Source: Verrucomicrobiota bacterium
Lineage (GTDB): Bacteria; Verrucomicrobiota; Verrucomicrobiia; Limisphaerales; Fontisphaeraceae
NCBI GenBank assembly: GCA_037139415.1
Contig: JBAXGN010000046.1
Location: 1-44,365 of the forward strand
Length of the DNA: 44,365 nt
Reading direction: 5' to 3'
Below, piece after piece: positions 22,920-42,575 of the stretch. The notes under the pieces were generated by a model. The model was given only the letters and a program-made list of their open reading frames with translations. It searched no databases and had not been told where the DNA came from. Position numbers and translations under genes: made by a program. The stretch's first letter is position 1. The number at the start of each line of letters is the position of its first letter.

Positions 22920-23066
22920 ACTGAACTTGTTTTTGATCAGTCTATTGCAGCAATTAGCTGACGGCGAGTGGTGATTCATGACCAGTGCAAAAGTAGCCTG
23001 GTTGTAACACGCGGGCAGGGTTTTTGCATTGTGTTTGAGTGTGTGGTGTATATATTGAGACCGTTC

Positions 23067-24023
23067 ATGGCTAGTGACGAAACAAATATCCAGCAGCCGG
23101 TGAAGACTGCCGGGAAAGAAATTCGGGAATTCCTTGAGGCATTCCCGAATAAGGCTTTTTTTTCTGTGGTAGCTTTGGGATGGTTGGCGCTGTTTTATTT
23201 CTATGGGAACTCCACCTTTGGTTATGTTTCTACGAACAGTTTGTTTCGATGGTTGCATGGAGTGTACCAAAGTAGCGATGATGATGCGCACGGTTACCTG
23301 ATCCCCTTTGTGGTGGTTGGCTTATTGTGGTGGCGACGCAACGATATTATCGGGCTGAAAAAGGATGTGTGTTGGCCCGCATTGTTACTGGTTATCCTAG
23401 GTTGCGCGATGCATGTTCTGGGCTATATGGTGCAACAGCCCCGTATTTCATTGGTGGCTTTTGTATTGGGGTTGTATGGGATCACCGGGCTGTTTTGGGG
23501 GGGGGCTTGGATGCGTCAAGCGTTCATTCCATTTTTCATGTTCGTTTTTTGTGTTCCGGTATCGGCGATATCTGAATCTTTGACCGTGCCCTTGCGGTTG
23601 TTGGCCACCAAGATCACTGCTTGGGTGGCGCAGCACATTCTCGGCATCGGGGTATTACAAGTGGGTAATCGGCTGCTGGAGCCGGAAGGCCGGTATAGCT
23701 ATGAAGTGGCGGCGGCTTGCAGTGGCATTCGCAGCCTGACGGCCATGCTGGCCATTACCACCGTCTTTGGTTTAGTGCAATTTAACCGTTCGTGGAAACG
23801 CCTGATGATGATGCTGTTAGCAGTACCATTGGCGATTGTGGCGAACGTCGTGCGCTTACTCATGATCGTGGTTGCGGCGGAAATATTCGGTCAACGCGGT
23901 GGGTATTATGTGCATGATAGCGAGTGGTTGAGTCTGATACCATACGTGCCCGCCATGGTCGTCGTTTTCCTGATTGGCAACTGGATGCGTGATAAGACCA
24001 CTAAGGAGGACCGTCCCGCGTGA
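23067..24023 (+). CDS. Exosortase/archaeosortase-family transpeptidase
   Basis: A 318-residue membrane cysteine protease-transpeptidase with about eight helices. Exosortases cleave C-terminal PEP-CTERM-type sorting signals of exported proteins. The three family active-site residues are all present: Cys218 in AAACSGIRSL, Arg263 in ANVVRLLMIV, and His283 in YYVHDSEWL. The N-terminal DAHGYLIPFVVVGLLWWRR is also a family landmark. The ATG at 23067 (MASDETNIQQP) is chosen; upstream codons in frame do not look like protein. It overlaps the next gene by 4 bases (GTGA). No obvious PEP-CTERM substrate is encoded in the window. The neighbours are exopolysaccharide genes, the usual company of exosortase. 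Confidence 0.92.
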   Translation: MASDETNIQQPVKTAGKEIREFLEAFPNKAFFSVVALGWLALFYFYGNSTFGYVSTNSLFRWLHGVYQSSDDDAHGYLIPFVVVGLLWWRRNDIIGLKKDVCWPALLLVILGCAMHVLGYMVQQPRISLVAFVLGLYGITGLFWGGAWMRQAFIPFFMFVFCVPVSAISESLTVPLRLLATKITAWVAQHILGIGVLQVGNRLLEPEGRYSYEVAAACSGIRSLTAMLAITTVFGLVQFNRSWKRLMMMLLAVPLAIVANVVRLLMIVVAAEIFGQRGGYYVHDSEWLSLIPYVPAMVVVFLIGNWMRDKTTKEDRPA

Positions 24024-24769
24024 ACGCCAAAGTCATTGTGGCCGGGTTGCTCGTGTTGGCATTTGCCGGTGTGACCGCCGTTACACTGGATTATGTGAAA
24101 GGCCATCATCGCCTGACGCCGCCGGGAGTCAAGGTAGTACCGGAAGCGCTGAAAGACGAAGATGGCAAACCGGTGGGTACCAACAGCGTGTATTTGCCAC
24201 CGGTTGTTTTGGGTGGCAAAGGCAAACTCATGCCGGTAACCAAAATGGAACGGATCATGCTGCCGTCTGATACCACGTTCGGGCGCATGCTCTATGAATG
24301 GCCTGATCAACCAACGTTGTACACCAGTGTCGTTTTGATGGGTGCCGACCGAACCAGCATGCATGCAGCCCAGTATTGTTTGATTGGGCAGGGTTGGACG
24401 ATCGATGATACGCGGCAAATCTCGGTTCCCATCGCTCAACCGCGCGCTTACCAGATGCCGGTGACGCAATTACTTCTATCGCGTCAAGTGTCGCACAAAG
24501 AGGAAATGATGACGGTTCGGGCGATGTACCTCTATTGGTTTGTGAGCAACGATGGAGTTGTGGCGCAGACCGCCAAACACCACTGGGCCTCTTCCATGCA
24601 GGTTATCCGCGAAGGCACTGTCAAACGGTGGGCCTATGTGTCCATGTTAGCGTTGTATGCGCCGGGACAGGAGGCGTCAACATTGGCGCGGGTGAAACAG
24701 CTTATAGCTGAAATCGTGCCGCAAGTGCATCTTGATTCCACCCTTCCCGCCATGCTAACCAAACGCTAA
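24020..24769 (+). CDS. Exosortase-associated EpsI-type protein
   Basis: A 249-residue protein anchored by one N-terminal helix (VIVAGLLVLAFAGVTAVTL), with the rest outside the cytoplasmic membrane. The C-terminal part carries features of the EpsI/DUF3485 group: a conserved CLIGQGW block near residue 120, a YLYWFVSNDGVVA strand and a final helix. EpsI domains are often fused to or placed directly after exosortase, as here. The start is a GTG that overlaps the exosortase stop (GTGA), so translation is coupled. The biochemical role of EpsI is not established. A role in exosortase function or exopolysaccharide export is inferred from context. Confidence 0.8.
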   Translation: MNAKVIVAGLLVLAFAGVTAVTLDYVKGHHRLTPPGVKVVPEALKDEDGKPVGTNSVYLPPVVLGGKGKLMPVTKMERIMLPSDTTFGRMLYEWPDQPTLYTSVVLMGADRTSMHAAQYCLIGQGWTIDDTRQISVPIAQPRAYQMPVTQLLLSRQVSHKEEMMTVRAMYLYWFVSNDGVVAQTAKHHWASSMQVIREGTVKRWAYVSMLALYAPGQEASTLARVKQLIAEIVPQVHLDSTLPAMLTKR

Positions 24770-33388: not shown

Positions 33389-34861
33389 TCAATGGGTCAA
33401 AACACTGGCTGGCACAATGCGCTTGGGCTGACCCGGGGGTTGCCACAAAAACCGGCAACCGGCATCCCCTTCGTTCTCATAGTACTCCAGCTTCAGCGCG
33501 TGTTCGCCGGCTTGTAGTTCCACTTCCCCGGACTTTTCCACCATGGGATGCATGCCGTCGTTATCCACCACCTGGTTACCATTAATGAACAGGCGTGAAC
33601 CATCATCCGATTCCACATAAAAGGTGTAACGGCCCGGCTCGGTCACCTTCAATTTGCCAGTCCAACGAATATAAAAGTGATCGCTCAGCGTGGTGCCGGG
33701 CCAGGAATCCGTGCCCACATTCACGTTGATCTTGCGGTCCACCCGCTCCACGGTGGGCCGTTTGTCCGCACTGATACTGGGAAAACTCTCCACGGCCCCA
33801 TCCAATGCGAACAACTCCGCCTTCAAACCCGCGTTGGGCTGGTCTATCAGCTTGGAGGCTGGGCAGTAAAGCGCGGTTGCCGGGACGATTTGTTTCTCCC
33901 GATCCGGCTGTTGCCAGGAGAATTTGCAGCCTGCCTGGCCATCGTTTTCATAATAGTCAATCCGCACCTCGTGTTCCCCGGATCGTAATTCTATCTCGCC
34001 GGATTTTTCCTCCATGGCGTGCAGGCCCCCATTATCCACCACCTGCCGTCCGTCAATAAACAGACGCGACCCATCATCCGATTCGAGAAAAAACGTGTAT
34101 TTGCCATCGGTCGGCACGCGCAAAAAACCGTCCCAACGAATGGAAAAATGATCCTTCAACTCGGTCCCCGGCCAGGCCTCATCACCGACATTGACATCAA
34201 TTGTGGCGTCCACTCGCTCCAGGGTCGGCTTTTTCCCTTCCGCAATGGTGGGGAAGTCTTCCAGCGCCGATTCAAAGGCATGGATTGTCGCCCGCAAACC
34301 GGCGACCGTGCCCTTGGGGGATGGTTCGGCCGGGGGTGCCTGACAGGATAGCACATTGGCAGGCACGATTTCCTTATCTTTACCCGGCGCCTGCCATAGG
34401 AACTTGCAGCCGGCCTGCCCGTCATTTTCAAAGTACTCGATTTTAAGGTCATGGTCCCCGGCTTTAAGCTGTGTCTCCCCCGATTTTTCCTCCATGGCAT
34501 GGAGTCCGCCGTGATCCACGACCTGCTGGCCGTCAATGAACAGGCGCGACCCGTCATCTGACACCAGGAAAAATGCGTATTTGCCTTCGGCGGCAATACG
34601 GATTTTACCGGTCCAGCGAATGAAGAAATGATCACTCCAACGGGTGCCGGGCCAGGCATCATCGCCGACATCCACATTGATCGTGGCATCCACGCGTTTA
34701 AGCGCTGGTGCCCGCTCCGCCGGAATATTGGGAAACTCCTCAATGGCATTATCCGAGGGATAAAACTCCGCCAGCAATCCAGGTTGGGTGGTTTCTGCGG
34801 CTGCCAGTGCCCAGCCAAGCCCGGCGGAACAACAAAGTAAAAAGGCAGTGATAATCTTCAT
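33389..34861 (-). CDS. Secreted protein with three tandem PA14 domains
   Basis: A 490-residue exported protein with a Sec signal peptide (MKIITAFLLCCSAGLGWALA). Three PA14-type domains of about 145-150 residues lie in tandem, beginning near residues 27, 185 and 340. Each holds WPGT, SDHF or KDHFxIRW, the block SDDGSRLFIDG, a short VVD(N/H)xGxH, E(K)SGE and YxENxGxAGC(K/R)FxWQ, and ends with IVPA. PA14 domains often bind glycans. No catalytic domain is attached, so binding or scaffolding is the likely role. The repeats are close enough to suggest duplication. It is divergent from the SUMF-PEBP-sulfotransferase operon across 231 bases. Confidence 0.87.
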   Translation of the reverse strand: MKIITAFLLCCSAGLGWALAAAETTQPGLLAEFYPSDNAIEEFPNIPAERAPALKRVDATINVDVGDDAWPGTRWSDHFFIRWTGKIRIAAEGKYAFFLVSDDGSRLFIDGQQVVDHGGLHAMEEKSGETQLKAGDHDLKIEYFENDGQAGCKFLWQAPGKDKEIVPANVLSCQAPPAEPSPKGTVAGLRATIHAFESALEDFPTIAEGKKPTLERVDATIDVNVGDEAWPGTELKDHFSIRWDGFLRVPTDGKYTFFLESDDGSRLFIDGRQVVDNGGLHAMEEKSGEIELRSGEHEVRIDYYENDGQAGCKFSWQQPDREKQIVPATALYCPASKLIDQPNAGLKAELFALDGAVESFPSISADKRPTVERVDRKINVNVGTDSWPGTTLSDHFYIRWTGKLKVTEPGRYTFYVESDDGSRLFINGNQVVDNDGMHPMVEKSGEVELQAGEHALKLEYYENEGDAGCRFLWQPPGQPKRIVPASVLTH

Positions 34862-35092: not shown

Positions 35093-36388
35093 ATGAAATT
35101 GTGTTATGCAATGTTGCGGTTGGTGCTGACGCTCACTTTGGGCCAGTCTGCGGTCATGCCGGTCCAGGCTGCGTTGCCGCCCGGGATGGCGCTGATTCCT
35201 GTCGGCACCTTTGAAATGGGCGATCACCATGGCTTCGTGGACCCCAAGCATGGTAGTGACGAAATCCCCATCCACAAGGTGCAACTGGATTCGTTCCATA
35301 TCGGGATCAACAATGTGACGACGAAGGAATACTGCGAGTTTCTCCATGCTGCGCAGGGGCAGAAACTGATCGAGGTGCGGAATGGCGGCGTGTACCTCGC
35401 GGGCGGCAAGGACCTGCTTTGTGACACGCGCCAGACATCCACGTGCAGCCGGATTGGTTGGGACGGCAAGACCTTCAGCGTGCTCGATAAAAAGGAGCGC
35501 CATCCGATGGTATGTGTCCGCTGGGCGGGGGCGGCGGTTTACTGCAACTGGCTGAGCGCAAAAATGGGAGTGCCAGCGTGCTATGACACGGCCACCTGGG
35601 ACTGCGACTTTAACAAAAGTGGTTACCGGCTGCCCACTGAAGCCGAGTGGGAATACGCCGCGCGCGGTGGCCAGTATAATCCTTACTGGAATTTTGCCAC
35701 GGCCAACGAGGCGGATCCCACCAGAGCCAACTGGCCGGAATCCAAGAACCCCTTCCGCAGCGGTTCGCTGCCGTGGACCACGCCGGTCGGTTTCTTCGAC
35801 GGCAAAGTGCATCAAAAAGCCGAGGCCGGTTGGCCCGGGGCACAGGATACGTTTCAAACCGCCAATGGCGTGAATGCCTTCGGCCTTAACGACATGGCCG
35901 GCAACGTCTGGCAATGGTGCACCGAGTGGTATGAGCGCAATTATTATGCGTATTCGCCAGCCACCAATCCGCCCGGTCCGGCCACGGGCAGTCCCATGCC
36001 GGATGGCAAACCGTACCGGTGCATGCGCGGCGGCAGTTGGTTCAATGGCGAGTATGGGCACAGCCGCGTCTCGAATCGCGATCCCTCGTATTTCCGCGGC
36101 CCTGACCCCATCACCCACCTTAGCGATCCCGATGGTCCCTATTTCCATATCGGCTTCCGGGTATTGCTGCCGATCAACGCCGAGAGCCGTCCGGTGATCA
36201 AGCCAACCCCCGTCCAAAAGGTACAACAGAACGACGGCGGTGGCGGCGGCGGTGATCGTCCGCCGCGCGATCCCAATCGCCCCGGTGGCGGGCAAAAAGG
36301 CAAAGGCAAGGGCGGCAGAGACGGCGGCGGACGAGGCCCCGAGGGCGGGACTGGTGACCGCCCGCCGCGTGATAATAATCAGCAATAG
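35093..36388 (+). CDS. Exported SUMF/FGE-fold protein with Gly-Arg-Pro-rich tail, catalytic Cys absent
   Basis: A 431-residue protein with a Sec signal peptide (MKLCYAMLRLVLTLTLGQ to about residue 27). It has a formylglycine-generating-enzyme fold: PPGMALIPVGTFEMGD near 29, VRWAGAAVYCNWLS, GYRLPTEAEWEYAARGGQ, NDMAGNVWQWCTEWY, RCMRGGSWF and HIGFRVLLP. True FGE has two active-site cysteines right after the GGS(Y/W) block; here the residues are FNGEYGHSRV, so oxidase activity is unlikely. A binding or structural role is more likely. Residues 380-431 are a low-complexity tail of G, R, K, P and D with DRPPRDPNRPGGG and a final DRPPRDNNQQ. The next two genes, 26 and 13 bases apart, carry similar tails. 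Confidence 0.86.
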   Translation: MKLCYAMLRLVLTLTLGQSAVMPVQAALPPGMALIPVGTFEMGDHHGFVDPKHGSDEIPIHKVQLDSFHIGINNVTTKEYCEFLHAAQGQKLIEVRNGGVYLAGGKDLLCDTRQTSTCSRIGWDGKTFSVLDKKERHPMVCVRWAGAAVYCNWLSAKMGVPACYDTATWDCDFNKSGYRLPTEAEWEYAARGGQYNPYWNFATANEADPTRANWPESKNPFRSGSLPWTTPVGFFDGKVHQKAEAGWPGAQDTFQTANGVNAFGLNDMAGNVWQWCTEWYERNYYAYSPATNPPGPATGSPMPDGKPYRCMRGGSWFNGEYGHSRVSNRDPSYFRGPDPITHLSDPDGPYFHIGFRVLLPINAESRPVIKPTPVQKVQQNDGGGGGGDRPPRDPNRPGGGQKGKGKGGRDGGGRGPEGGTGDRPPRDNNQQ

Positions 36389-36414
36389 GAATTCCCGATG
36401 CACCTCCCAAAATT

Positions 36415-37086
36415 ATGAACGCACGAAAACAACTTATTCAATATCTGCCCCTGCTGATTGCGGCACTAACGCCTGGTGTATTCTCCCTATTGGCTCTGGC
36501 CGCCGAACCGAATGAAACTGGAAACACCGGCGCGAAACCGAAGTCTGCGTTGGTGCTGCGCAGTTCCGAGGTAACTAATGGCGGAACCTTGCCCAAGGAT
36601 TACACTGGGGATGGCACCAGTTCCACCCTGCCGCTGGAATGGAACGGCGCACCGGGCAACACCAAAAGTTACGCCGTCATCATGCACCATATTGATCCCA
36701 AAGGCGAGGCCAAGTGGTACTGGACTCTCTATAACATTCCGGCCAGCGTTCAGTCCCTGCCCAAAAATGTGAAAGGGGTGGGCACGCTGGGCAACAACAG
36801 TGTCAACAATCGCACCGAATATGCGCCCCCGCATTCCAAGGGGCCCGGTCCCAAGACCTATATCTATACCGTCTATGCGCTCTCCGCACCGCCGGAAATC
36901 ACCGTTCCGCCCGCCAAAGTCAATCGCGAGGTGTTGCTCACCGCGATGAAAGATAAAATCCTCGCCACCGCAGAACTGAGCGTCGTTTATTCACGGCCCG
37001 CCGGTGCGACGGATGGCCCGGCTGACCACCCCCCGCGTGATCCCAATCGCCAAGGGGGCGAACGCAGACCGCCAACCCAACCATGA
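36415..37086 (+). CDS. Exported PEBP / YbhB-YbcL-like protein with PPRDPNR tail
   Basis: A 223-residue protein with a signal peptide (IQYLPLLIAALTPGVFSLLALA). It has a phosphatidylethanolamine-binding-protein fold of the bacterial YbhB type: LVLRSSEVTNGGTLPKDYTG, LPLEWNGAPGNTKSYAVIMH, IDPKGEAKWYWTLYNIP, YAPPHSKGPGPKTYIYTVYA. Bacterial YbhB-type proteins have no firmly known ligand. The final 24 residues are a non-domain tail, HPPRDPNRQGGERRPPTQP, almost the same motif as in the upstream SUMF protein; 18 of 19 bases coding the motif are identical (36263-36281 and 37033-37051). This points to a shared function or origin for the tails. Confidence 0.87.
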   Translation: MNARKQLIQYLPLLIAALTPGVFSLLALAAEPNETGNTGAKPKSALVLRSSEVTNGGTLPKDYTGDGTSSTLPLEWNGAPGNTKSYAVIMHHIDPKGEAKWYWTLYNIPASVQSLPKNVKGVGTLGNNSVNNRTEYAPPHSKGPGPKTYIYTVYALSAPPEITVPPAKVNREVLLTAMKDKILATAELSVVYSRPAGATDGPADHPPRDPNRQGGERRPPTQP

Positions 37087-37099
37087 ACCAACAAAAATT

Positions 37100-38809
37100 A
37101 TGAAAACAGCATTCAAAACCATCGTTAATACAATCAAGGCCGCCCTGTGTGCGTTGCTGGTCACCGGCGGAGTTCTCCAGTTCCCTTCCAGTACCTCCGC
37201 CCAGGAAGAACCCAATAGTCACCCGCCCCGTCCGGACGGTCAACGGCAAGGCCAAGGTCAGGGCCAGGGCCGGGGTCAAGGCCGCGAGGGTGGCGGTGGC
37301 GGCGGCGGTGGAGCACGGCATGACATGCCGGAGAACAAAACCCCGACGTCGCCCAATCCCGGCCAGACCGTGGGGCTATTCCTCAATACCTCCAAGGCTT
37401 GCAGCGGCTATACACTTTTCGCGCCCAAGCATAACATGGTCACCTATCTGATGGACAATCAGGGACAGGTGATACACCAGTGGAAAAGCCAATACGAACC
37501 CGGACAATCCGTTTATCTGCTGACCAATGGCCACCTCATCCGTGCCTGTATGCTTCGGGTGCAGGGCGGCACCGGCGGCGGCGAAGGCGGACGGATTGAG
37601 GAGTACGACTGGGAGGGCAACCTCGTATGGGAGTTCGATCATGCCACGCGCGACTATCAACTGCATCATGATCTCAAGCCGATGCCCAACGGTCACATTC
37701 TTGCTTTGATGGTCGAGCGCAAGTCGTCCGAGCAGGCGCTGGCGGCTGGCTTCACTGCCAACCTGCTGCGTGATGAATATCTGGTGCCCGATGCCATTGT
37801 GGAGATCGAGCCCATCAAGCCCAAAGGCGGCCGTATTGTCTGGGAGTGGCACGTCTGGGATCACTTGATTCAGGATTTGGACCGGACCAAGCCCAATTAC
37901 GGTGACGTTGCAGCGCACCCGGAGCTAATCAGTGTGGCCTGCAATGGGCGGAGTTCACCCGCTTTCTGGAATCACATGAATTCGCTCGATTACAACCCGG
38001 CGCTCGACCAGATCGCCTTGAGCGTGCGTGGTTGCAATGAGATATGGTTGCTGGACCATAGCACCACCACCAAGGCGGCTGCCGGCCACAGTGGCGGTAA
38101 ACACGGCAAGGGTGGGGACCTCATTTATCGCTGGGGTAATCCGGCTGCCTACAAACGCGGCACGATGCAGGATAAACAACTGGTCCAGCAGCACGATGCC
38201 CAGTGGATTCCCGCGGGCTATCCCGGCGCCGGTCATCTCACTATTTTTAATAATGGCTACGATCGCGGTTACACCAGCATCGAAGAAATCGTGTTGCCGG
38301 TGGATGCCAATGGCCGATACATCCTCGAGCCGGGCAAAGCATACGGGCCCGAAAAACCTGTCTGGCATTACGAGGCGAAAATTCGCACCGACTTTTTCTC
38401 CTCGGAAATTTCCGGGGCTCACCGGCTGCCCAACGGCAACACCCTCATCTGCGCGGGCATCGTGGGCAACCTGTTTGAAGTTACCCCGACGGGCGAGATG
38501 GTATGGCAATACGTGAACCCGATGGTGCGTGGCGGCATCCTGGCGCAGGGCGAATTGCCCGGCAAAGACATGCGCGGCCACTTGTGGAACGCCGTCTTTA
38601 AAATCCATCGCTACGAGCCCAATTATCTGGGTCTCGCTGGACGGGACCTGACGCCCAAAGGCGTGGTTGAACTGCCCGCATCGCAAAAAGGCAAAACCGG
38701 CCTGCATCTCATGACCGAAGCCCAACGCACAGATCGTCCCGGCGGTGGTGGTGGCGGTGGTAAAAAAGGACGCGATGGCGGACAACAACCTCGCGAGCGG
38801 CTACAGTAA
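37100..38809 (+). CDS. Exported aryl-sulfotransferase-like (ASST) protein with Gly-rich ends
   Basis: A 569-residue protein with a signal peptide ending near SSTSAQ. After it comes a low-complexity segment (about residues 40-75) of HPPRP and repeated GQ, GR and G. A beta-propeller of the arylsulfotransferase type follows: TPGYTLFAP-like GYTLFAPKHN, YLMDNQGQVIHQW, LLTNGHLIRACM, HHDLKPMPNGHILALM, FWNHMNSLDYNPALDQI, SGAHRLPNGNTLICAG and EVTPTGEMVWQYV. Bacterial ASST moves sulfuryl groups between phenols using a catalytic His; I cannot assign that His here. The C-terminus ends with DRPGGGGGGGKKGRDGG and a basic QQPRERLQ. It is the last gene of the three-gene operon. I use the ATG at 37100, since the frame upstream overlaps the PEBP gene. 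Confidence 0.84.
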   Translation: MKTAFKTIVNTIKAALCALLVTGGVLQFPSSTSAQEEPNSHPPRPDGQRQGQGQGQGRGQGREGGGGGGGGARHDMPENKTPTSPNPGQTVGLFLNTSKACSGYTLFAPKHNMVTYLMDNQGQVIHQWKSQYEPGQSVYLLTNGHLIRACMLRVQGGTGGGEGGRIEEYDWEGNLVWEFDHATRDYQLHHDLKPMPNGHILALMVERKSSEQALAAGFTANLLRDEYLVPDAIVEIEPIKPKGGRIVWEWHVWDHLIQDLDRTKPNYGDVAAHPELISVACNGRSSPAFWNHMNSLDYNPALDQIALSVRGCNEIWLLDHSTTTKAAAGHSGGKHGKGGDLIYRWGNPAAYKRGTMQDKQLVQQHDAQWIPAGYPGAGHLTIFNNGYDRGYTSIEEIVLPVDANGRYILEPGKAYGPEKPVWHYEAKIRTDFFSSEISGAHRLPNGNTLICAGIVGNLFEVTPTGEMVWQYVNPMVRGGILAQGELPGKDMRGHLWNAVFKIHRYEPNYLGLAGRDLTPKGVVELPASQKGKTGLHLMTEAQRTDRPGGGGGGGKKGRDGGQQPRERLQ

Positions 38810-38819
38810 ATGCTGCTGT

Positions 38820-39134
38820 CCTGGATATTTCATCGCCGGGATAGAATTGGGGGTTGGGCCTGGAGTTGCAGCGGTGACCGACGAGCCCACCCATTCTGTG
38901 CCGGGAAAAATCCGGGGCTCCGCCCTCGTGGGCCTGAGCTTCTTCGGGCTGATGCCCTTTGCCAGCCTGGGCATCACGAGCCTGGCGGATTGGGTGGGCA
39001 TGCGGGAATCGCTGCTGATTGCGGCGGGCCTTTACGCGGCGGTTTCCATTCCCGTCCTGATCGGGTCCCGCAAGCGAATCTGTGAAGAATCAGGGAAGAA
39101 TGCCGAAAGCCCGAACGCCGAGCCGGGGAAGTGA
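38820..39134 (+). pseudogene. C-terminal remnant of an MFS transporter
   Basis: About 105 codons remain open with no plausible start of their own; upstream the frame runs into the sulfotransferase gene. The product resembles the last two or three helices of an EntS-type (MFS_3) exporter: AGIELGVGPGVAAVTDE, then VPGKIRGSALVGLSFFGLMP, ASLGITSLADWVGMRESLLI and AAGLYAAVSIPVLIGSRKRI. The normal protein is about 400 residues, so most of the gene is missing. It abuts the sulfotransferase stop within 11 bases and its stop lies inside the left copy of a 31-base direct repeat. Translation is unlikely. Confidence 0.6.
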
Positions 39135-40229: not shown

Positions 40230-42575
40230 ATGCCAGCTCCGATTGGTGACGCAAATTTTGCACCCGGCCAAAAGGTCGGGGCGGGACGCTTTACCTTGGT
40301 CAAGCAACTGGGGCAGGGCGGCATGGGCGTGGTGTGGCTGGCCGAGGATGCGGAATTGCTGCGTTCCGTCGCGCTCAAGTTTGTCTCCCCACTCTTGCAG
40401 GCGGACCTGGATGCCATGGAAGGGTTGAAGCGCGAGACCGCCCGCGCCCTGATGCTCACCCACGACAACATCATTCGCATTTATGATTTCCACCGCAATA
40501 CCGGGGAACTGCCGTTCATCTCCATGGAATATGTGGCGGGCAAGAGCCTGGTGGAATTGCGTTACGAACAGCCGGGCGAGGTGTTCACCTGGGAAGTCCT
40601 GCGCCCGTGGGTGCAACAGCTCTGCCAGGCGTTGGAATACGCGCACGGCAAGGGCGTCATCCATCGGGACCTCAAGCCGGGCAACCTGATGGTGGACCAG
40701 TCCGGGACATTGAAGCTGGCGGATTTCGGGATTGCGGCGGTGATTCATAACTCCATGAGCCGGGTATCGGTACAGCACGCGTCGAGCGGCACCCCGGCGT
40801 ACATGAGCCCGCAGCAGGTGGAGGGTGAACGCCCCAAGGTGGGTGATGACATTTATGCATTGGGAGCAACGTTGTACCATCTGTTCTGCGGAGAACTGGT
40901 CTTTGATGGTCCGGCACTGTTGCACTTGGTCAAGAATTCGCCTCCACAACCTTTGCCCGCAAGGCTGGCGGAATTGGGCATTGCCAATACGCTGCCTCCG
41001 CAAGTAGTCGAGACGGTGATGGCCTGTCTGGGCAAGAAACCTGAGGAACGGCCCGTCAGCATCAAGGCGGTTTGGGAACGGGTGGAAAGTGGCATGGGCG
41101 TTCCGCCCGTAAGTGTGCCCGCTGCTATACCGCTCAAAACTACGTCCTTGTCGGTCACCATTCCTGTTGAAACGGGTGAAGGGGAAGTCTTGCCTGCAAC
41201 TGTGGCAGCCTTGCAAGCTGAGGTAATCCCCGTCACGATTCCGGTGAAGCAAATACAAGCCATCCCTGCCACTAAACCGGCGATGCACCTGGAACTGCCG
41301 TCCACCATTGCGGCGCGCCCGACGGAACGTCCAGAGGTAATCAAGCGCCGGTGGATCTTGGCGGTTGTGGTGCTGGTGGCCTTGTTGGCGGTGGGGGGAT
41401 GGTATTGGGGAATGTATTTACCAATCCAACGCAAGACGATTGCAGACTCAAATCAACTCAGCCTGCGACTGGCGAGAGACCAGCACTTGCGAGTAAAACT
41501 GACCAGCTTCCCTGACGGTGCAGAAATGATATTGAATCCGAAAAATGAACAGGGCATACCGATTACTCAAATTACCAACCGAAATCAGATCACATACAAC
41601 GCCAGAGTGTATCATCGTAAATTTGACCTGAGTGAACTGGAAGAGCCAGGTGCGGTCACAAACCAGCAGTCGGGGGTGGTGGAAATGTTCTATAAATTCA
41701 AATGCGGGGTGGCGGATTTGAATAGTTCTCCAACGGGGGCAGTGGTTTATTGTGGCAACCGAAAGATTGAAACCCCAACGCAATGGTGGTTCAAACCCGG
41801 GCCTTTGGAATTAGCCATGGTGTTGGGAGGTAAAACCAATCTTATCAAAACCTATATTGTTCCTGATCAATCCACAAACATTACCGGCATCTTTGCCGCC
41901 ACTCCGGAAATGTCCCCTGGTGTTGTTGTCAGCGCTGGCGGCTACAATAAAGCCGAAACGTTTACGAATACCATCGGCATGGTGCTATCGTGGGTCCCCA
42001 ATCTGCTTGGGACCAAAGGCGCGTATGTGGGGAGGTATGAAGTTTCTCATAGTGAATTCTTCCAAGTAACCAGCAGGGATCCCAGCGTCGTTAATCAAAG
42101 TCAACTGACCATGTGGAGTCCGGATCTCCCGGTGGACTCTGTAAATGTCAAAGAGGCACTGGAGTTTTGCCGGAAATTGACGGAAAAGGAACGGGGAAAA
42201 ACGTTGCCAGACAATGCTGAATACACACTGCCCACACTTGCGCAATGGCGGGTTTTCTCGGATTTATTTGGCGCCGGGATGGATCAGTTGCGCGATGATA
42301 ACGCCTATGCGCATGTCGGTTGGCCGTTGAGATACAGTAGTGGTAAAACCAATAAATTCGGGCTGACCTTCACCATGGGTAATGTCAAGGAGTGGTGTAA
42401 AAGCGAGGGGGCATCTGGGACGTCATGGTATTTGGCAGGGGGATGTTACACGAATGCGGCGGCTTTCAATGTCAAAAAACTTGTGGGGGGTATCATGAAC
42501 GCTTCCGCTGATCCCGTAGGCCCAGATACAAAATCCACCGTGGGCGGATTTCGTTGTGTCCTTATTGAAAAATAA
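40230..42575 (+). CDS. Membrane Ser/Thr protein kinase with C-terminal SUMF-like domain
   Basis: A 781-residue eukaryotic-type kinase. The Gly loop is LGQGGMGVVW at about 27-36, the ATP lysine is K50 in VALKFVSP, the catalytic loop HRDLKPGN is at 145-152, DFG is at 165-167 and the GTPAYMSPQQ activation end follows. A Pro, Val and Thr-rich linker leads to one membrane helix (WILAVVVLVALLAVGGWYWG, about 375-395). The outside part has PEGA-like strands (about 410-560), then a SUMF/FGE-fold domain (GMVLSWVPNLLGTKGAYVGRYEVS, LPTLAQWRVFSDLFG, FTMGNVKEWCKSEG, VGGFRCVLIEK). The FGE cysteine pair is absent, so this end is probably a sensor or binding module. Its target is unknown. Confidence 0.9.
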   Translation: MPAPIGDANFAPGQKVGAGRFTLVKQLGQGGMGVVWLAEDAELLRSVALKFVSPLLQADLDAMEGLKRETARALMLTHDNIIRIYDFHRNTGELPFISMEYVAGKSLVELRYEQPGEVFTWEVLRPWVQQLCQALEYAHGKGVIHRDLKPGNLMVDQSGTLKLADFGIAAVIHNSMSRVSVQHASSGTPAYMSPQQVEGERPKVGDDIYALGATLYHLFCGELVFDGPALLHLVKNSPPQPLPARLAELGIANTLPPQVVETVMACLGKKPEERPVSIKAVWERVESGMGVPPVSVPAAIPLKTTSLSVTIPVETGEGEVLPATVAALQAEVIPVTIPVKQIQAIPATKPAMHLELPSTIAARPTERPEVIKRRWILAVVVLVALLAVGGWYWGMYLPIQRKTIADSNQLSLRLARDQHLRVKLTSFPDGAEMILNPKNEQGIPITQITNRNQITYNARVYHRKFDLSELEEPGAVTNQQSGVVEMFYKFKCGVADLNSSPTGAVVYCGNRKIETPTQWWFKPGPLELAMVLGGKTNLIKTYIVPDQSTNITGIFAATPEMSPGVVVSAGGYNKAETFTNTIGMVLSWVPNLLGTKGAYVGRYEVSHSEFFQVTSRDPSVVNQSQLTMWSPDLPVDSVNVKEALEFCRKLTEKERGKTLPDNAEYTLPTLAQWRVFSDLFGAGMDQLRDDNAYAHVGWPLRYSSGKTNKFGLTFTMGNVKEWCKSEGASGTSWYLAGGCYTNAAAFNVKKLVGGIMNASADPVGPDTKSTVGGFRCVLIEK

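Follow-up and report, generated by a model that had tools for sequence, protein, structure and literature searches.

AssT (EcAST) of Escherichia coli CFT073 (PDB 3ELQ) and Cpz4 of Streptomyces (PDB 9KF6) are arylsulfotransferases (ASST) independent of 3'-phosphoadenosine 5'-phosphosulfate (PAPS), with a propeller fold and a His/Asn/Arg/His site; for AssT, the active-site residues are His356, Asn358, Arg374 and the catalytic His436 (PMC13426309). FGE/SUMF1, the OCTIN superfamily and GldK/PorK represent the FGE-sulfatase fold family, in which domains lacking the cysteines are already known (GldK/PorK; OCTIN superfamily, PMC5915273). We describe here three consecutive genes, P0001, P0002 and P0003, at 35093-38809 on the plus strand of a 44,365-nucleotide contig (JBAXGN010000046.1; C46 in our labelling) from a Verrucomicrobiota bacterium, which encode exported SUMF-like, PEBP-like and ASST-like proteins with Gly/Arg/Pro-rich tails. 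The contig, hereafter called the window, belongs to an assembly (GCA_037139415.1, genome G000) of 7.9 Mb in 378 contigs that is 98% complete.

The reading that we favor, and hold to be rather likely, is that the operon represents a conserved exported module of SUMF-like, PEBP-like and ASST-like domains, here divided among three genes, and that the tails are linkers of that chain. According to this proposal, the three domains, carried in other bacteria as one chain or as two (the first two domains fused, then the ASST), would have been separated in this lineage, so that disordered linkers became protein ends and new signal peptides were gained; the ends would retain the old linker motif RPPRDxNR(PPRP). 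At the envelope or surface, the ASST propeller would transfer (or remove) sulfuryl groups through its conserved histidine, and the cysteine-less SUMF-like domain and the PEBP-like domain may bind or position the substrate rather than activate sulfatases.

The trio and its fused relatives

P0001 (35093-36388) matches Pfam PF03781 (FGE-sulfatase; 1.6e-44), P0002 (36415-37086) matches PF01161 (PBP; 8.3e-23), and P0003 (37100-38809) matches PF05935 (Arylsulfotrans; 7.7e-23). The first two genes are 26 bases apart (36389-36414) and the last two 13 bases apart (37087-37099); reading frames and Pfam bear out the arrangement described in an earlier note made from the sequence alone. For P0003 we chose the ATG at 37100 over a longer GTG frame at 37004 because the ATG opens a signal-like segment. 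The same note assigned signal peptides to all three proteins; each has a hydrophobic N-terminus, which we take, by eye, to be a signal peptide.

Relatives were retrieved by ASST alignment alone, and the best 80 of 459 confirmed loci were used; 40 of these, with ASST scores above 600 bits, are referred to as trio-type (L074 and L066 fall outside the 40 because longest-frame picking took an antisense frame over their ASST). A SUMF-like domain is encoded upstream on the same strand, within 4.5 kb, in 37 of the 40 trio-type loci; in two of the three that have none, the sequence starts within the ASST gene, at the edge of the contig, and in the third, L093, a different ASST-like frame occupies that place on a contig of 4.7 kb. 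A PEBP domain is present in 29 of the 40. When the domains are abbreviated S, P and A and fusion is written with an equals sign, the architectures are S=P=A in 13 loci, S=P followed by A in 15, S=A in four, S followed by A in four, and ASST alone or cut in three, with one locus (L068) broken by N; in L060, an ASST paralogue lies between S=P and A. Three intact separate S, P and A genes were found in none of the 29 loci that have all three domains. The genome of the window also codes for a fused copy of 1315 amino acids (G000:C205). Of the 146 order genomes searched, 14 have a relative of P0003 at E 1e-20, and in the same 146 genomes PEBP relatives (E <1e-30) occur at 22 places, 20 of them in frames of at least 434 amino acids. 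The two short-frame places are the window, where P0002 stands alone, and G017, whose match holds a stop, as do five of the 20.

The tail of P0001 aligns with the S-P linkers of the fused relatives, and the neighbors of the window in both the ASST and the SUMF trees are mostly fused rows. In the ASST tree, the window belongs to a set of seven rows (100/98) together with five rows of the S=P followed by A type and L060. In the SUMF tree, it belongs to a set of 12 rows (100/97) with L058, L061, L079, L080, L082, L059, L065, L078 and planctomycete rows, apart from its ASST neighbors. The PEBP tree places it beside L091 (89/90) and in no starred set, a weakly supported placement. The trees are unrooted; 14 outgroup rows were used for the ASST tree and the other outgroup rows were omitted.

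Several observations weigh against the favored reading. The SUMF, PEBP and ASST parts of the window each have different nearest relatives, most of them fused, and the operon may therefore be a mosaic rather than the product of a single ancestor that split once. The trees have no placed root, which leaves room for fusion by several lineages. The predicted model of a fused chain (L073) was poor, with a mean predicted local distance difference test (pLDDT) score of 46 and a predicted template modeling (pTM) score of 0.43, and is unusable for judging domain packing. The contig also departs from the surroundings of other copies: an ASST paralogue was not found on it (9 of 17 genome candidates were scored), and no sulfatase was recognized by eye among its frames. 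Splitting of a fused ancestor combined with module exchange is the simplest reading of these sequence comparisons, although the trees are unrooted.

Around the other copies, within limited flanks, an ASST paralogue is found in 18 of the 40 loci, an S1 sulfatase in 10 (CTPSR in nine, CTPTR in one, L072), Lcl_C proteins in six and metallophosphoesterases in three; these counts come from scores and string matches, with domains checked on examples. CotH, a GH106 rhamnosidase and PQQ_2 proteins each appear near other copies at single loci. Giant proteins of ~2500-4700 residues that combine two or three ASST-like domains with one SUMF-like domain were also seen, at L038 8535-20000 together with L039 1-2472 (G000:C125), L042 1063-11703, L046/L047, L048 10612-18261, L049 7603-17109 and L104 4179-14810, the last of which additionally contains Lcl_C, SGL, Ig and cadherin domains.

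Tails, linkers and the shared motif

The low-complexity strings named in the earlier note are all present. The tail of P0001 (36254-36385) has 44 residues and contains PPRDPNR (36260-36280) and PPRDNNQ (36362-36382); that of P0002, DHPPRDPNRQGGERRPPTQP, is encoded at 37024-37083 with PPRDPNR at 37030-37050, and the DNA around PPRDPNR is identical at 18 of 19 bases between the two genes, as had been noted. P0003 carries HPPRPDGQ followed by GQ/GR repeats past the signal and DRPGGGGGGGKKGRDGG close to its end; the full PPRDPNR is absent. Both ends of P0003 are predicted to be disordered in an AlphaFold2 model (pLDDT <50 for residues 23-78 and 536-569), which covers the mature N-terminal stretch with HPPRP, GQ/GR repeats and poly-Gly (37205-37333) and the C-terminal tail (38705-38806).

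Tails of this kind occur across the trio-type relatives, as the earlier note had anticipated, and are weak in L061, L073 and L097. Among stretches of at least 10 residues past the domain cores, the median fraction of Gly, Pro, Arg, Gln, Asn, Asp and Lys is 0.55 for SUMF (a list that includes giant-protein rows with long ordinary sequence), 0.71 for PEBP and 0.73 for ASST. The corresponding value for the 40 C-terminal residues of 397 further frames from these loci is 0.375, and 17 of those frames reach 0.6. The 32 measurable trio-type ASST proteins extend 28-91 residues past the end of the ELPAS core, the first ~10-20 of them conserved; close orthologues devoid of such an extension, which the earlier note had named as a case against itself, were not encountered among those measured. 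By composition, the L061 ASST tail is not Gly-rich, that of L073 is poor, and L085 and the remote L097 have little or none.

The tails are also largely confined to this system. In 60 stretches (~0.96 Mb) of the same genome, Gly/Arg/Pro-type tails were found on two of 426 frames with a hydrophobic N-terminus, and one of the two is probably no gene; the other adverse case, tails on many unrelated proteins, did not arise in the part of the genome sampled. The same census picked exactly the three trio genes in the window and, on three other homologue-bearing contigs, the fused homologue, an ASST paralogue and a small Gly-rich protein. With a stricter cut-off, no selected frame of the 60 stretches qualified; the frame picking for that count passed over P0001 itself, where an antisense frame is longer, whereas the census above takes in P0001. 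An exported-looking protein of 175 residues, the second half of which is mostly Gly, Gln, Pro and Arg, is encoded on the minus strand at L040 7939-8466, adjoining the fused homologue on G000:C205, and has no Pfam match.

The motif itself is enriched. PPR[DN] occurs 36 times in 140,080 residues of SUMF-, PEBP- and ASST-type proteins from the 80 loci, seven times in 193,532 residues of their neighbors (three of the seven in co-clustered exported proteins) and six times in 288,475 residues of the same-genome sample. Among 87 family tails of 8-160 residues, the window's three included (SUMF at least 540 bits, ASST at least 600 bits; two near-copies removed from 89), the long motif RP[PAS]R[DN]xN[RQ] is present in nine and PPRD in 21, whereas 1000 shuffled versions of the tail set gave 0.00 and 1.14 on average, respectively; this excess is not a probability because the tails come from related sequences. 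The long motif is found in 8 of 29 SUMF tails, 1 of 28 PEBP tails and 0 of 30 ASST tails, P0003 being among the 30, and PPRD in seven SUMF, eight PEBP and six ASST tails; PPRD or PPRN appears in 11 of the 32 ASST ends (e.g., L052, L058, L059, L062, L063, L069, L079 and L087). Chance and composition, considered as the cause of the shared motif, were ruled out by the shuffles together with the same-genome census. RPPRDPNR, RPPRDANRPPRP, RPPRDTNRPPRP, RPPRDSNR and similar sequences are present in the linkers of bins named Verrucomicrobia (L059, L064), Lentisphaerae (L057), Hydrogenedentes (L089, L092) and Pirellulaceae (L083), where single phylum labels may be wrong because the organism names are those of metagenome bins.

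Codon-pattern scans provided weaker evidence, with raw counts not far above the reversed-pattern controls, and accepted only CGN arginine codons, so that copies such as that of L057 (AGG) were missed. Across 387 genomes of the phylum, RPPRDxNR was matched 12 times, in 11 of them, against seven in the control; only the window's match falls within a believable gene's tail, and that of L192 overlaps a gene start. The own-genome scan gave six matches against five, three of them outside the trio in short frames. Scanning 32 trio-bearing genomes, that of L074 lying outside the scan, with PPRDxNR gave 31 matches against eight; of the 30 places inspected, seven are within trio proteins of six genomes and 23 are, by eye, in frames without a recognizable gene.

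The other content of the linkers and ends varies. The ASST ends of L081, L086, L088, L089 and L090 (Hydrogenedentes bins) have SLGYL in place of RPPRD, a second end motif that is also present in one linker (L077). The linker that follows the SUMF domain holds EF-hands in some lineages (L086 by Pfam; L076 and L090 by eye), and by eye an LTXXQ-like helical stretch in L067, L069, L079, L080 and L082.

One could envisage instead that the tails serve as tags for docking or for retention at the surface, RPPRDxNR(PPRP) being read by a common extracytoplasmic partner that holds the separate proteins together or at the surface. The excess of the long motif over composition in SUMF tails and one PEBP tail, the presence of PPRD in all three tail types, the recurrence of the motif in Verrucomicrobia, Lentisphaerae, Hydrogenedentes and Planctomycetes bins, and the seven of 30 inspected places that fall in trio proteins, the other 23 being by eye non-gene frames, all agree with this idea; however, we found no protein that reads the motif, its long form is missing from every ASST tail in the set, many tails keep the composition alone (e.g., L055 and L060), and in the fused forms a linker role suffices. 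We consider such tags a rather unlikely explanation, although RPPRDxNR may possibly have a dedicated docking or address function.

The comparison with type IX secretion cargo also speaks for this idea. In 15 Bacteroidota/Ignavibacteriae loci with remote SUMF-ASST neighbors, a type IX sorting domain is found at 15 of 15 SUMF and 15 of 15 ASST ends by NCBIfam (E <=0.01; not all matches reach the cut-off, the L107 SUMF scoring 17.3 bits versus 23), and at 14 of 15 and 15 of 15, respectively, by Pfam. In all, 18 loci have Bacteroidetes or Ignavibacteriae titles, and L116, L124 and L129 were left out for a fused, absent or cut SUMF frame. The sorting domain (Por_Secre_tail) sits in the slot where the window proteins have their tails, which unlike it are of Gly/Arg/Pro sequence. 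SprA is present in three tested Bacteroidota/Ignavibacteriae genomes and had no match in five trio-bearing Verrucomicrobiota genomes; neither SprA nor Por_Secre_tail gave a match in the window's genome at E 0.001, and a domain search detected no sorting domain in the trio proteins. Type IX tails are common in the tested Bacteroidota, with at least 150 matches each, and a tail shared there therefore says only that both proteins reach the surface. By analogy, P0001-P0003 may be surface-located as well. It seems unlikely, but is conceivable, that Verrucomicrobiota, Planctomycetota, Hydrogenedentota and Lentisphaerota use the RPPRDxNR(PPRP) tails as a new short motif for addressing or docking. Where a type IX system is lacking, such tails would direct the unrelated exported SUMF-, PEBP- and ASST-like folds to a common place on the surface and would take the position that the type IX sorting domain has in Bacteroidota.

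The tails might also be generic basic disordered extensions that bind an anionic polymer, such as a cell-surface or sulfated polysaccharide, by charge and with no specific motif. A net positive charge is carried by 27 of the 29 SUMF tails and by 27 of the 30 ASST tails, and an ASST propeller with a neighboring sulfatase would fit anionic sulfated substrates, but only 8 of 28 PEBP tails are positive, the others being neutral or negative, and the motif exceeds same-composition shuffles, which makes this explanation distinctly improbable. Copying of a low-complexity GC-rich repeat between adjoining genes, to which the 18 of 19 identical bases and the G-rich codons might point, is very improbable and largely refuted, given that the motif is kept across phyla with codons that differ between species and that its SUMF-side and PEBP-side copies in L059 differ by one residue but in six of seven codons, which indicates retention at the protein level rather than a DNA repeat.

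We return to the tails as linkers of an ancestral fused protein. The earlier note was right to see a single system whose tail is shared and largely specific, and it missed the correspondence with linkers. Its single extracytoplasmic assembly holds in so far as natural fusions place the three folds in one exported unit and the tails are largely confined to the system, but the tails do not prove a separate partner; no shared polymer, surface layer or docking protein was found, and linkers account for them more simply.

The ASST-like, SUMF-like and PEBP-like domains

The AlphaFold2 model of P0003 (pLDDT 70.9, pTM 0.72) matches the solved folds of Cpz4 (Z 29.4) and AssT (Z 23.7), unrelated propellers scoring at most 21.4. 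A search of PDB with the single P0003 sequence gave chance matches only, and profiles were required. In a profile alignment, H292, N294, R310 and H365 of P0003 correspond to H356, N358, R374 and H436 of AssT; a six-sequence alignment had placed H365 one column off H436, and the fuller profile alignment matched them. All 83 ASST domains above 450 bits keep H292, N294 and H365, and 81 of them keep R310. Of 46 ASST paralogues, 33 have Gln in place of the arginine, and only 38 have His in the catalytic column. P0003 shares the propeller fold and the His/Asn/Arg/His site with AssT and Cpz4 at ~17% identity over the aligned core; unlike them, it stands in tandem or fused with SUMF-like and PEBP-like domains and has disordered tails, and unlike AssT, it has no Dsb gene that we recognized by eye beside it. 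The model and the conserved residues suggest that P0003 is probably an active PAPS-independent sulfotransferase. Sulfated exopolymers of Pontiella are, to judge by its title, the subject of one paper (PMC7356697). The neighbors of the module would fit extracytoplasmic work on sulfated polysaccharide or phenolic sulfates, in either direction. Arylsulfotransferase and sulfotransferase genes in two bins were taken as support for the making of sulfated polysaccharide in one report (PMC10866078).

The sulfate-ester chemistry suggested in the earlier note is plausible for the ASST part only. The catalytic cysteine pair of FGE is, we assume, C-x4-C after RGGS. The place of the first cysteine is occupied by Asn in 79 of 79 SUMF domains with a filled column, and that of the second by His, Tyr, Arg or Met when judged by spacing and by Ser or Ala when a profile is aligned to FGE structures; no row has the pair, although a single Cys lies nearby in a few. 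P0001 should accordingly not activate sulfatases, and this role was ruled out. A single-sequence HMMER alignment had suggested C310 of P0001 as an FGE cysteine, a candidate rejected because both the profile alignment and the RGGS anchor show the position to be a different one; in most relatives it is Gly. Most rows carry the signature GG[NS]W[YF]NG..GH[SG]RV[SA]NR[DN]PSYY, with conserved His 45, 53 and 61. P0001 thus belongs to the FGE-sulfatase fold family and resembles OCTIN-type proteins in lacking the catalytic cysteines, but its family differs from FGE and OCTIN proteins in having its own signature and C-terminal PEBP and ASST partner domains. The alignments suggest that the SUMF-like domain serves in binding or has a structural role, or else catalyzes some other reaction.

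P0002 has the PDB relatives 1fux and 3n08. The anion-binding pocket of PEBP proteins has the motifs DPDxP and GxHR; in most rows of the family the first site is HHxxP and the second Gx[KR]T, and His92, Tyr136 and Pro139 are invariant in 34 rows. YHYH-PEBP proteins of Verrucomicrobiota (L239, L242, L243 and L245) have the same type of PEBP domain, likewise behind a Gly/Pro/Arg-rich linker, but their partner domain is YHYH, and ASST is absent from the same chain in the four scanned.

Surroundings of the locus and significance

On the minus strand at 33389-34861, divergent from the trio, lies a gene for an exported-looking protein with three PA14 domains. Directly past P0003, at 38820-39134 and in another frame, we recognized by eye what appear to be the last helices of a front-less MFS permease, in which Pfam found nothing; the end of the operon behind P0003 may be a recombination joint. 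A Ser/Thr kinase with a C-terminal FGE-like domain (PF03781, 1.1e-5) is encoded at 40230-42575, shortly past the trio. An exosortase (EpsH type) and EpsI-like pair, followed by an apparent sugar transferase, at 22968-24769, represents another C-terminal sorting system on the same contig; the exosortase gene is ~10 kb away from the trio, whose proteins end, as judged by eye, in hydrophilic tails. RNA family and tRNA searches of the window found none, and promoter and terminator scans gave matches no more numerous than in shuffles.

Literature searches, thin in subscription papers, returned no paper on ASST joined with FGE and PEBP domains or on YHYH joined with PEBP. Other ASST searches (with Verrucomicrobia and sulfatase, with Planctomycetes, or more loosely worded) gave none on the module, the looser search being judged by titles among the matches listed, and nothing related was found on low-complexity linkers in Planctomycetes. 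What emerges is a widespread exported three-domain module without a paper in the literature searched. It joins a probably active PAPS-independent sulfotransferase to two domains that are usually, and misleadingly, annotated as a sulfatase activator and a Raf kinase inhibitor. Its split, fused and type IX-tagged forms constitute a natural experiment on the function of the shared tails, and surface sulfuryl transfer in these bacteria becomes directly testable.

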